This document shows positions 23,628-32,392 of a stretch of DNA of 46,724 nt, piece by piece (positions within the stretch are counted from its first letter, which is position 1; every line of letters begins with the position of its first letter). Source of the DNA: Bacillota bacterium (lineage in GTDB: Bacteria > Bacillota > Sulfobacillia > Sulfobacillales > Sulfobacillaceae); NCBI GenBank assembly GCA_023475835.1, contig JAMCVM010000223.1:1-46724 (forward strand), read 5' to 3'. The notes under the pieces were generated by a model. The model was not told where the DNA came from. It searched no databases and saw only the letters and a program-made list of their open reading frames with translations. A program made the position numbers and the translations under genes.

Positions 23628-25211
23628 ATGAAATCTATTGTACTTTATGACACCACGCTTAGAGACGGCACCCAAAGGGCGGCCATCAGCTTGTCCTTGG
23701 ACGATAAACTGCAGATAGCAGCTTTGTTAGACGAATTTGGAATGGATTATATCGAGGGCGGATTTCCGGGATCCAACCCTAAAGACGCTCAGTTTTTCGA
23801 GTGGATGCGCCAGCATCCGAAGGTTAGTAAGATGGCGGCTTTTGGTAGCACGGTGAGGAAGGGGATGGAGGCCAAAGACGATCCCAACTTACGGGCTCTG
23901 GTCGACGCCCAATCAGGAGTGGCGACGATTTTTGGAAAAGCCTCGGCCTTTCACGCTGAAAAAGTCCTGGGCGTCGACCGTGCAGAGAACCTTAGGATGG
24001 TTGAGTCGTCGATTCGATTTCTCGTCGGTGAAGGGCTGGAAGTTTTGTTTGACGCCGAGCATTTTTTTGATGGATGTAGGGAAGATCAGGACTACGCCAT
24101 GGAGGTGCTCAAGCGGGCTCAGGACGGCGGCGCGGCGTGGGTGGTGCTTTGCGACACTAACGGAGGAAGTTTACCTCATCACGTCGGCGAGATGGTCAGC
24201 CGAGCAGCCGAGGCGGTTCAGGTCCGGATTGGCATTCATGCTCACGATGATTCGGGCTTAGGCGTGGCCAATAGCCTAGAGGCGGTCTTGGCGGGAGCCG
24301 AAATGGTGCAAGGGACGATTAATGGTTACGGCGAACGGTGCGGCAACGCCAATTTATGCACCGTGATTCCTGATTTGGTGTTAAAAATGGGCTATGACTT
24401 AAACTGCGCCCCTGCCCTTGACAATCTCACGCGTTTGTCGCGGACGGTGGCGGACATCGCGAATCTTTCGCTGGATGCCGCCGCACCCTTTGTCGGCGAG
24501 AACGCTTTTACCCATAAGGCCGGCCTGCACGTCGGTGCGGTGCGCAAACATCCCCACGCTTATGAGCACGTTAAACCAGAATCGGTCGGACAGACGCGAA
24601 GAGTGCTGATGTCGGAATTGGCCGGACGAGCGAATTTGTTGTATCAATTTGATGGATTAAACCTAGAACCTCAGGCACTGACGAATCTTATGGACGATGT
24701 CAAGCGATTAGAAGCCCAAGGCTATCAGTTTGAAGCCGCCGAATCCTCAGTGGCGCTCATGGTTCAACGCGCCATGGGTCAGGTACCATCGTTTTATCAC
24801 GTCGACCGTTTCCACGTTTCGGTGGCAATGGATGGGGTGCCGGTCACCGAAGCGACCGTGCGCCTGACCGTCGGCCAACAAACGGTATTGGAAGTTGGCG
24901 ATGGCGATGGTCCAGTGAATGCCTTGGACAACGCCTTGCGCCGGGCGTTGACTCGATTTTATCCCGTTATTGGCGATCTGCGACTGACGGATTACAAGGT
25001 CCGGGTCCTAGACGCCAATGAGGCTACGGCAGCCACCGTGCGCGTGCACGTGCGCTCGGAATTCCATGGAGAACCCGTCACCACCGTCGGGGTCTCGCCA
25101 AACATTTTGGAGGCATCCTGGAAGGCTCTTTTAGACGCCGTCGACTATGCCTTGTGGCGAGATCAATCGCAACATTCAGCCGACCCGGGTCTGCCCCCGA
25201 GTGAGATGTAG
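23628..25211 (+). CDS. cimA: (R)-citramalate synthase
   Basis: This enzyme condenses pyruvate with acetyl-CoA to give citramalate, the first step of the threonine-independent isoleucine route. The catalytic HMGL-like domain starts with LYDTTLRDGTQ (Arg12, Asp13), has EGGFPGSNPKD, and GIHAHDDSGLGVANS plus the NGYGERCGNANL segment near 230-250. The C-terminal region after about 390 is the LeuA allosteric/dimerisation domain. The 527-residue length and the GGFPGSNPKD motif distinguish CimA from LeuA and homocitrate synthase. A ribosome site GAGGGA precedes the ATG. It needs LeuCD, found 3.6 kb away, for the next step. It overlaps dapA by 36 bases on the other strand. Confidence 0.9.
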   Translation: MKSIVLYDTTLRDGTQRAAISLSLDDKLQIAALLDEFGMDYIEGGFPGSNPKDAQFFEWMRQHPKVSKMAAFGSTVRKGMEAKDDPNLRALVDAQSGVATIFGKASAFHAEKVLGVDRAENLRMVESSIRFLVGEGLEVLFDAEHFFDGCREDQDYAMEVLKRAQDGGAAWVVLCDTNGGSLPHHVGEMVSRAAEAVQVRIGIHAHDDSGLGVANSLEAVLAGAEMVQGTINGYGERCGNANLCTVIPDLVLKMGYDLNCAPALDNLTRLSRTVADIANLSLDAAAPFVGENAFTHKAGLHVGAVRKHPHAYEHVKPESVGQTRRVLMSELAGRANLLYQFDGLNLEPQALTNLMDDVKRLEAQGYQFEAAESSVALMVQRAMGQVPSFYHVDRFHVSVAMDGVPVTEATVRLTVGQQTVLEVGDGDGPVNALDNALRRALTRFYPVIGDLRLTDYKVRVLDANEATAATVRVHVRSEFHGEPVTTVGVSPNILEASWKALLDAVDYALWRDQSQHSADPGLPPSEM

Positions 25212-26084
25212 CCCTTCGGTCAAGAGTTGCCCCAACCGGGTAAATTCTTCAGGGTCTTCGGGAAAAGCCAAGGGCAGGCGAACATATTGGGACGGCCATC
25301 CCAACTGGCTCAACGCCCATTTTACGGGGATAGGATTGGTGAGTCGAAAGAGTTCTTCGAAGATGGGCAGCAGCATACGATGCAGTTCTTGAGCGCGATG
25401 AATGTCGCGGTTGGTCCAGGCGGCCATCATTTCTGCTAAGGCGTCGCCTGCGACGTGTGAAGCGACACTGACTACGCCGTGGGCTCCTAGGGCAAGACTG
25501 GGATAAAAGAGGGCGTCGTCGCCACAATATACTTTAACTGACGACGGTACTTGAGCAATCAGATGACCGATTTGGGTGATGTTTCCGGACGCTTCTTTGA
25601 CCGCCAATAGATTGGGAGATTGTTCGATAATCCGACAGATAGTGTCTGGCTCTACGTTGGTTCCGGTGCGCCCGGGTACATTGTACAGCATCATTGGCAA
25701 TCCCGTGGCTCGGGCGACTGCGGAGAAATGCTGCACCAAGGCATATTGTGGGGGTTTGTTGTAGTAGGGAGTCACCACTAAGATGCCGTCGGCCCCCCAC
25801 GATTCTGCCTGACGACTCCAAGCCACCGATTGGCGAGTATCGTTGCAACCGGTGCCAACCCATACCGGAATGTGAGCCGGAACCTGCGATCTGACCGCAT
25901 CGAAGAGGGCACGCCGTTCCTCGTCGTTCAGCGTGGGCGACTCTCCGGTCGTCCCGGCAACCATAATGCCGTCGCTGCCGTGCTCGACTAACCATAGAGC
26001 CAAACGACCAGCGGTCGCCAAATCGATGGTGCCTTCCGAGTCAAACGGGGTGATCATCGCGGTAAAAACATGGGGCCAGTTCAT
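25176..26084 (-). CDS. dapA: 4-hydroxy-tetrahydrodipicolinate synthase
   Basis: This is the first committed enzyme of lysine/diaminopimelate synthesis, joining pyruvate and aspartate semialdehyde. The TIM barrel has GTTGESPTL, the catalytic Tyr134 in LYNVPGRTG and the Schiff-base Lys163 in LLAVKEASGN; the family length (302 residues) is normal. AGGAGG lies immediately before the ATG. The 5' region carries a strong promoter about 320 bases upstream and a structured leader with a short ORF. The gene is not linked to dapB or asd here; a DapL-like aminotransferase is divergently placed on the far side of the leader. The 3' end overlaps cimA by 36 bases. Confidence 0.94.
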   Translation of the reverse strand: MNWPHVFTAMITPFDSEGTIDLATAGRLALWLVEHGSDGIMVAGTTGESPTLNDEERRALFDAVRSQVPAHIPVWVGTGCNDTRQSVAWSRQAESWGADGILVVTPYYNKPPQYALVQHFSAVARATGLPMMLYNVPGRTGTNVEPDTICRIIEQSPNLLAVKEASGNITQIGHLIAQVPSSVKVYCGDDALFYPSLALGAHGVVSVASHVAGDALAEMMAAWTNRDIHRAQELHRMLLPIFEELFRLTNPIPVKWALSQLGWPSQYVRLPLAFPEDPEEFTRLGQLLTEGLHLTRGQTRVG

Positions 26085-26150
26085 GATATCCTCCTTGTTG
26101 TCTACGGCCGGTCATTCCGGCGCCATCCTGAGATAAGCGGCTGATCATAA

Positions 26151-26194
26151 CGTATGCAACGCTTGTGAAAGCGTCCGATTCGCATACGTATCGG
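26151..26194. ncRNA. pseudoknot-capable structured element in the dapA leader
   Basis: CGTATGC (26151-26157) pairs with GCATACG (26182-26188), enclosing a hairpin ACGCTT/AAGCGT (26159-26164 with 26169-26174); CCGAT (26175-26179) inside the outer stem is complementary to ATCGG (26190-26194) just outside it, giving an H-type pseudoknot. It would lie in the minus-strand dapA leader, between the short ORF hairpin and the dapA start. It does not match the lysine riboswitch or another class I recognise. Confidence 0.4.
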
Positions 26195-26197
26195 CAA

Positions 26198-26225
26198 AGC
26201 CGGGTGGCCTGTAAGCTACCCGGCT
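26198..26225 (-). terminator. attenuator-like hairpin at the end of the short leader ORF
   Basis: AGCCGGGTGGC (26198-26208) and GCTACCCGGCT (26215-26225) form an 11-bp stem with one wobble pair and a 6-base loop. On the minus strand it is followed by only TTT before GC, so it is a weak terminator at best. The stop codon of the short ORF lies exactly at its base. Confidence 0.45.
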
Positions 26226-26358
26226 ATATCTTGATTCGCTTAAATCCAGGGACAACCAAGAAAGAGAGATTGCAAGCAGAGGACAAACTACCATCATGGG
26301 AGCGACGAAATCTAACCATACGAGGAACGAAAGCCACATCAGCAGGATTTGCCAGCAT
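26224..26358 (-). CDS. possible 44-residue leader ORF upstream of dapA
   Basis: This short frame starts with an ATG preceded at about 6 bases by GGGGGG, the best ribosome site in the region, within the transcript of a strong minus-strand promoter. The product is basic, ends in a lysine-bearing FKRIKI, and its stop codon overlaps the base of the 26198-26225 hairpin. This is the geometry of a regulatory leader peptide for dapA, with only two closely spaced lysine codons at the end. I recognise no homologue. A second overlapping frame (start near 26339) encodes a hydrophobic peptide and could be the real one; neither may be real. Confidence 0.35.
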   Translation of the reverse strand: MLANPADVAFVPRMVRFRRSHDGSLSSACNLSFLVVPGFKRIKI

Positions 26359-26407
26359 TTCGTTCCCCCCTTTGCGGATAGCCATAGTTTCGGTAAACTT
26401 AAATTGG

Positions 26408-26436
26408 ATTATACGGGATGCAGGTTGGCTTGTAAA
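26408..26436 (-). promoter_or_regulatory. strong sigma-A-type promoter, probably of dapA
   Basis: Read on the minus strand, TTTACA (26431-26436) and TATAAT (26408-26413) are separated by 17 bases. The transcript would begin near 26402, about 320 bases before the dapA ATG, and would contain the short ORF, hairpin and pseudoknot element. Confidence 0.65.
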
Positions 26437-26515
26437 GTGCAATTTTGGGGTGGCATTCATGGGAACTCCCAGAGTTACGTGCTGGCACCTCCCGTCCCAA
26501 GACTTTAGCGGTGCT

Positions 26516-26569
26516 GTCAACTACCTCACCCTAAGGGGCGGAGCCTGAGGGAACTCGGGCTAGGTTGAC
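26516..26569. mobile_element. possible end of an IS200/IS605-type element
   Basis: GTCAAC (26516-26521) pairs with GTTGAC (26564-26569), and between them are nested imperfect hairpins built from CTCACCC/GGGGCGGAG. Such compact hairpins with this kind of motif are common at the ends of IS200/IS605 (TnpB-type) elements. No transposase gene is present in the region, so this could be a remnant, or an unrelated hairpin. The upstream part of the aminotransferase frame lies in it. Confidence 0.3.
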
Positions 26570-26660
26570 CGGGGAAAGCGGTATCCAACCCGTTAGGTTT
26601 GCGATGGGTCGCCAAGACGCACCGGCCAATGCTCACGAAAAAATTACCTACTCTGAGGAA

Positions 26661-32154: not shown

Positions 32155-32392
32155 AGGACCCATAACATACCGTTACCGCGATGATGAAGCCGGGATGACT
32201 GACCGTACGCAGCGAGCCGATGAGGGTGGAAGATCGGCACGGATAGGGAAATCCAACCCACTTTTGAGCGTTCCGACGAAAGTCGGACGGAGTCCCCCGA
32301 TATGGGACGTAAGCGGTCGACAAGGACAGTCGGCAACTGAGGTGGTACCGCGGATTTTTAATTCGCCCTCGCTAAATGAGGGCGGTTTTTGT
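32155..32392 (+). promoter_or_regulatory. T-box riboswitch leader of proBA
   Basis: The leader has the hallmark T-box sequence GGTGGTACCGCG (32341-32352), which pairs with the acceptor end of uncharged tRNA, and a mutually exclusive intrinsic terminator CGCCCTC-gctaaat-GAGGGCG followed by TTTTT (32364-32390). Upstream, GCGAGCCGATGAGGGTGGAAG is the usual stem II/S-turn type region, and GTCCC/GGGAC forms stem III. Stem I is short. In the proline-biosynthesis context the specifier is expected to be a proline codon; CCG at 32203-32205 is a candidate. Transcription of proBA would be allowed when tRNA-Pro is uncharged. Confidence 0.88.

Follow-up and report, generated by a model that had tools for sequence, protein, structure and literature searches.

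How is lysine synthesis controlled in bacteria that lack the lysine riboswitch? In textbooks, lysine exemplifies gene control through riboswitches that bind metabolites. The lysine riboswitch (RF00168) regulates lysine-biosynthesis genes in many Firmicutes, as is proposed below for the element described here, although it is a different RNA and senses free lysine. The stretch of DNA analysed (46,724 nucleotides from a bacterium of the Sulfobacillaceae, hereafter the window) contains, on its minus strand, a dapA gene encoding 4-hydroxy-tetrahydrodipicolinate synthase (25176-26084; TIGR00674 equivalog, 311 bits against a cut-off of 206). This gene, which we propose to be the regulated one, is preceded by a complex leader in which the original prediction had seen no lysine riboswitch consensus. 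Our searches agreed: no Rfam family was found in the window at gathering threshold, and RF00168 was detected in none of the 34 genomes of the family, the same search being positive in four control genomes. T-boxes (RF00230) are common in this genome, with nine matches, none of which is located at dapA. A permissive Rfam scan returned a HEARO fragment on the strand opposite to the leader and chance-level matches only.

Two neighbouring elements may be recorded here in their own right. The HEARO fragment (RF02033, IscB/OMEGA guide RNA; 34 bits, cut-off 83) is a truncated match at 26516-26647 on the plus strand, in the interval that separates the dapA promoter from a divergently transcribed aminotransferase gene. 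Six HEARO matches were present in the genome, two of them above the cut-off; the one in question looks like a decayed element, and its sequence is found in the sister genome (L009) as well. Elsewhere in the window, a T-box-like RNA (32172-32373, plus strand; 71.6 bits, E 2e-15, cut-off 93) is positioned directly upstream of proB (32407), which suggests tRNA-controlled proline synthesis.

Layout of the dapA leader and its distribution in the family

All leader features described below lie on the minus strand. A sigma-A-type promoter, TTTACA-17-TATAAT (26408-26436, 11/12 match), is the single promoter-like site before dapA. About 324 bases separate its -10 box from the start of dapA, in good agreement with the near-consensus promoter originally placed at about 320 bases. 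Its position ahead of the leader ORF speaks against a transcript start restricted to the 60 bases proximal to dapA. The promoter is followed by a ribosome-binding site, AAAGGGGGGAACG (26361-26373), and by the predicted 44-codon ORF (26224-26358), which is translated as MLANPADVAFVPRMVRFRRSHDGSLSSACNLSFLVVPGFKRIKI and ends in ...VPGFKRIKI-UAG. The ribosome site had been described as very strong, but it is actually a G run (AAAGGGGGG) and no textbook Shine-Dalgarno (SD) sequence; SD-like sequences occur at the equivalent place in relatives, many of which carry AAAGGAG or AAGGAGG. Near the end of the ORF, the first Lys codon (AAG) of a terminal cluster is found at 26239-26241, and another AAG at 26230-26232 starts 8 nt before the GCCGG arm of a hairpin, a distance kept in 25 of 25 loci (invariant Lys codon). 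This hairpin, H1 (26198-26225), has 8+3=11 bp and begins within the stop codon, and its outer GCCGG/CCGGC is family-invariant. The UAG (26226-26224) overlaps the base of H1, just as had been noted. Across the leader, the divergent aminotransferase has LL-diaminopimelate aminotransferase as its best match, so both genes flanking the leader probably belong to the lysine pathway.

The signals of the window alone do not set this layout apart from chance. A promoter match of this kind is at chance level (mean of 0.9 expected in shuffled sequences), and the leader fold alone is only modestly stable (z -2.15). It is conservation that places the layout above chance. We searched for DapA proteins in the 34 family genomes and read up to 560 bases upstream of each start. 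The leader was present before dapA in 25 loci, representing 10 of the 11 genera of the Sulfobacillus-like family, and because the promoter-ORF-AAG-hairpin arrangement recurs in these loci, we regard it as real. The common layout consists of a promoter, an ORF of 26-46 codons, the invariant AAG, five bases and the GCCGG...CCGGC hairpin. An open frame was found in all 25 loci, and a promoter and an SD were predicted from the sequence in most of them; in the 20 loci with a clear ORF start, promoters with 9-11/12 matches were located 33-57 nt upstream of the ORF. The leaders fall into two classes. In class 1, the AAG is followed by one codon (mostly AUN), UAG and then CCGG. In class 2, the position of UAG is occupied by UGG or GGG, and the ORF continues into the hairpin loop (e.g. 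...K-T-W-P-V-R-A-stop). Leaders of genus g8 are short, with only about 45-56 nt from H1 to the dapA start.

In genus g9 (L013), neither the Lys-codon ORF nor the hairpin was found upstream of dapA; the gene has its own promoter-like site there and a long leader. Loci L034-L037 of the same family possess a second type of dapA, which starts a few bases after the upstream gene and has no leader. Within the family, the AAG-to-hairpin pattern in its TAG form and all strong covariance-model matches fell at dapA; other pattern matches had either no UAG hairpin layout or no inner stem and resembled chance. No such leader was found at lysA in the family genomes, and no match to the element in the plasmid collection searched. 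Beyond the family, scanning the whole class with the hairpin model yielded weak matches only, none of them at a listed dapA place. Alternatively, the leader might just contain a translated upstream ORF or encode a small protein, neither of them involved in regulation, or its layout might have arisen by chance. However, the presence of the leader only at dapA within the family, in 10 genera, with the Lys end and the hairpin conserved and the peptide body not, speaks against both, and we consider such explanations highly improbable.

Lysine codons of the leader peptide

In every genus having the leader, the ORF ends in lysine codons. Lys codons made up 42 of the 225 codons in the nine positions before the invariant Lys, compared to 11 of 583 in the remaining ORF. 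This corresponds to an enrichment of about 12-fold (odds ratio; Fisher p ~1e-15), which is to be taken as strong rather than exact, the sequences being related. In frames 0, +1 and +2 of the same stretch, 42, 1 and 2 Lys codons were counted, respectively, so the enrichment belongs to the reading frame. The codons themselves are biased as well: of 78 Lys codons in the leaders, 74 were AAG and 4 were AAA, as against AAG:AAA counts of 149:193 in the genes of the window, 157:279 summed over the genes in the loci, and 17:84 in the dapA genes. Both a CUU and a UUU anticodon are represented among the tRNA-Lys genes of the window's genome. Other attenuation leaders are also known to favour particular control codons, a preference attributed to the selective charging of isoacceptors (PMC1183508).

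The DapA proteins of L008-L033 contain only 1.4% lysine, written as AAA (84) over AAG (17), which is opposite to the leaders. This preference fits a starvation-induced enzyme that avoids the starved codon.

The peptide body appeared to evolve freely. In all close leader pairs, non-synonymous changes in the body were at least as numerous as synonymous ones, and the test thus gave no purifying selection on the body. The claim of a translated ORF therefore rests on the frame, the Lys codons and the codon bias; a freely evolving body would be expected if the sole requirement is that ribosomes translate the control codons. Between genera, only the Lys positions are common, and the position of the stop differs between class 1 and class 2. 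These patterns also bear on nascent-peptide arrest, in which the C-terminus would sense free lysine (or diaminopimelate) in the ribosome in the manner of TnaC or SpeFL, the arrest itself being the signal. Admittedly, P-x-x-K-x-x-x-K-[I/M]-stop is common to many class 1 leaders, and K-x-G-[V/A]-K-T-[W/G]-P-[V/A] to those of class 2. Nevertheless, the residues between the lysines vary between genera, the stop moves (UAG of class 1 being UGG or GGG in class 2), and the strong AAG bias would be unneeded by an arrest at the amino-acid level. No arrest sequence conserved at the peptide level was found, and we consider arrest improbable. The interpretation of the element as a lysine-codon leader peptide is well supported.

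Pairing of the leader with the dapA ribosome-binding region

As for the output of the leader, no intrinsic terminator was found on the minus strand and H1 has no U tract across the family. A transcriptional attenuator with a terminator switch of the trp/his type is therefore unlikely. In the window, two long-range helices between the leader ORF and the region preceding dapA were predicted. In P1, an anti-SD segment of the ORF (26251-26265) would pair with the dapA SD region (26089-26102, including AAGGAGG at 26090-26096). In P2, the leader codons through the first Lys codon (26237-26250) would pair with an anti-Lys-codon segment, CGCUUAUCUCAGG (26127-26139). Leaders of g1/g10/g4 and of g8 cannot be aligned to each other outside the AAG-hairpin core; when the two groups were folded separately with RNAalifold, the same topology was obtained, i.e. 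the SD paired with the anti-SD, the Lys-codon region with a stretch upstream of the SD, and H1 at the tip. In ensembles of the whole leader, the dapA SD paired with ORF codons situated about 27-34 nt ahead of the invariant Lys in g1, g4 and g8 loci and partly in g10, and with codons 5-21 nt ahead of it in L020, L024 and L026, the codons between anti-SD and hairpin pairing with the sequence that precedes the SD.

Complementarity was above controls in most genera. In 15 of 22 loci, the SD was on average better hidden by the native 5' part than by its shuffled versions, and the duplex of the leader with the SD region, averaged per genus and compared with dinucleotide shuffles, gave Stouffer p of 0.001-0.003. 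The duplex was strong in g10, g4, g8 and g11, moderate in g6 and weak in g1 and g7; in g2, g3 and g5, the shuffle comparison found no such pairing. For the window's own leader (L008/L009), the duplex had only a slight advantage over shuffles (z about -0.5 to -1.4). In g1, sequestration of the SD is supported by homology and the consensus fold, and in g6 it is supported in most cases. The energies of P1 and P2 in g1/g10/g4 were better than those of all 300 shuffles. Swapping the partners between genera made the duplexes less stable overall (p from 0.002 to 0.09 with different sequence windows), and clearly so between g4 and g1/g10, where P2 changed from -20.3 (cognate) to -14.2 kcal/mol (swapped) and P1 from -16.2 to -13.0 kcal/mol.

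The comparison among relatives that the original prediction had called for did not go against it: the partners fit their own genus better than other genera. The number of compensatory positions in P1 and P2 of g1/g10/g4 was not above shuffles, because the duplexes were energy-fitted. This count was therefore dropped as evidence, and the case rests on the energy and swap tests. Within g8, the structure held in 95.5% of cells, compared to 40-53% for slid registers; the helices are conserved there, and no double changes were seen. The modelled SD switch is thus supported in several genera, weak in the leader of the window on thermodynamics alone, and absent in three genera. Since g2, g3 and g5 show no pairing of the leader with the SD, and g7 shows little, release of the SD is not universal across the family.

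We also modelled the effect of a stalled ribosome. When a ribosome was placed on the Lys codons and the RNA beneath it and 5' of it was deleted, the mean cost of opening the SD dropped from 7.3 to about 4.3 kcal/mol, a value to be read with the expectation that any truncation lowers it somewhat. Among the loci covered, which were all but the last five, a single footprint of 28 nt at the first Lys codon lowered the cost in L010, L011, L012, L020, L023, L024, L025 and L026, and no decrease was obtained with the same model in L016, L018 and L022. In the leader of the window, a single stalled ribosome reduced the opening cost from 6.7 to 5.6 kcal/mol in the static model, and the unpaired fraction of the SD rose from 0.02 to 0.07 with one ribosome and to 0.30 with a queued second one. 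Some genera therefore fit the model of SD release well, while for the window there is only a hint of it.

The same lysine-codon leader might also act through Rho-dependent termination: a pyrimidine-rich ORF would load Rho, H1 would pause the polymerase, and stalled or queued ribosomes would exclude Rho. Most leader bodies are indeed rich in pyrimidines (about 19 of 25 have C>G), most loci exceeding nearly all dapA windows in pyrimidine content, and Rho was found in all eight genomes checked. Moreover, Salmonella orf34-speF couples Rho termination with sequestration of the ribosome-binding site (PMC6386406), and Rho would also cover the genera with no SD pairing. On the other hand, the C or pyrimidine bias is weak or missing in several g8 leaders, the anti-SD strand would need pyrimidine richness anyway, and the pairing to the SD would be left unexplained. 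We consider the Rho-dependent output unlikely.

Between H1 and dapA, further helices were found. An alignment of three genera (g1/g10/g4) revealed a clade-specific module at 26150-26194, composed of P3 (CCGAU 26194-26190/AUCGG 26179-26175), P4 (ACGUAUGC 26189-26182/GCAUACGU 26157-26150), with which an H-type pseudoknot is possible, and an inner hairpin, P5 (26174-26159). By inspection, the P3 stem reads CCGAU/AUCGG, CCCGC/GCGGG, UCGGC/GCCGG or CCGGC/GCCGG depending on lineage, and its loop can pair with a downstream GCAUACG or GCAUA. The module itself is probably real in these genera. As for the pseudoknot potential originally assigned to 26151-26194, the helices are compatible with it; being confined to three genera, however, it represents a clade-specific extra outside the core. 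It could be argued from the conservation of P3-P5 and the re-pairing of P3 that this module is a small-molecule riboswitch for lysine or diaminopimelate, the ORF being secondary. Yet the module is absent from the short g8 leaders, which retain the ORF, the Lys codons and H1, and it matches no Rfam family; a riboswitch at this site is thus very doubtful.

Another hairpin, H3 (GCCGG-AAUGA-CCGGC, 26107-26121), is located between P2 and the dapA SD and is re-formed with different sequence in related genera. By inspection, it is apparently kept in three genera as GCCGG/CCGGC, GGUCGA/UCGACC and GUCGGG/CCCGAC.

Proposed mechanism, precedents and significance

We propose that the leader is probably a lysine-sensing, ribosome-mediated attenuator of dapA, that is, a leader peptide which senses lysine-tRNA and acts mainly on dapA translation, with no terminator. 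According to the model, the transcript would begin about 315 nt before dapA and encode a leader peptide with Lys (AAG) among its last codons. When Lys-tRNA is charged, ribosomes would reach the UAG and leave the leader ORF, and the freed ORF strand would fold on the dapA 5' region (P1 at the SD, P2 upstream of it, H1 at the tip), resulting in low dapA translation. When lysine is short, a ribosome would stall on the Lys codons and cover P2 together with part of P1, and a queued second ribosome would cover a larger share of P1. With P1 and P2 occupied, the dapA SD would be released and dapA turned on. The stalling, the direction of control and its translational level are what we infer here.

The original prediction of leader-peptide or RNA-based attenuation of lysine/diaminopimelate synthesis fares well in this light: Lys codons stand at the ORF end in each leader-bearing genus, and pairing with the dapA ribosome-binding region is predicted in several genera, so that its leader-peptide half is strongly supported. 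The Lys codons, the AAG bias, the family-wide distribution and the SD pairing were not part of that prediction.

To our knowledge, lysine is absent from the classical leader-peptide attenuators. In the rtpA (anti-TRAP) leader of Bacillus subtilis, known from the work of Chen and Yanofsky in 2003 and 2004, stalling at cognate codons reportedly controls translation initiation of the next gene. That leader differs from the present one in having Trp codons and a T-box in front, and in using a positional switch (a ribosome at the stop covers the SD) as against the long-range helix here. The work of Chen and Yanofsky is cited in PMC11255114. The closest mechanistic precedent we found is Salmonella orf34-speF (PMC6386406), which likewise combines a short ORF containing amino-acid control codons, a hairpin just past the stop, and ORF codons that pair with the downstream ribosome-binding site, the long-range helix being supported by compensatory mutants. 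However, orf34-speF responds to arginine/ornithine, targets a decarboxylase, is also Rho-dependent and has no sequence relationship to our leaders, which contain lysine codons, precede a lysine-biosynthesis gene and show no pairing with the ribosome-binding site in three genera. The trp/his/leu/thr attenuators of Proteobacteria resemble the dapA leader in their clustered end-product codons and biased control codon (PMC1183508), but operate through terminator and antiterminator structures, none of which was found here. In the open-access literature (subscription journals being mostly outside it), no leader-peptide attenuator for lysine came to light. Nearest to one was SEP5 of Sinorhizobium meliloti (PMC10117765), a translated short ORF in a 5'-UTR; its terminal part contains Thr and Lys codons, and it has been proposed to be an aspartate-branch leader peptide. 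Unlike the dapA leader, it is dominated by Thr, belongs to another gene and phylum, and comes with no demonstrated mechanism.

There is, in our estimate, about an even chance that this is the first natural lysine-responsive leader-peptide attenuator, in which riboswitch-lacking Sulfobacillus-like Firmicutes read the charging of Lys-tRNA by AAG codons and the coding strand of the leader sequesters the dapA SD with no terminator involved. If true, it would close a gap by adding lysine to the amino acids for which leader-peptide attenuators are known, and it would provide an example of a leader ORF whose coding strand itself inhibits a downstream ribosome site. Because the leaders prefer AAG where dapA prefers AAA, the theory that selective charging governs the choice of control codons can be tested for lysine. 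A leader peptide of this kind, kept at dapA throughout most genera of the family, would also mean that bacteria can sense lysine supply by the charging of Lys-tRNA as well.
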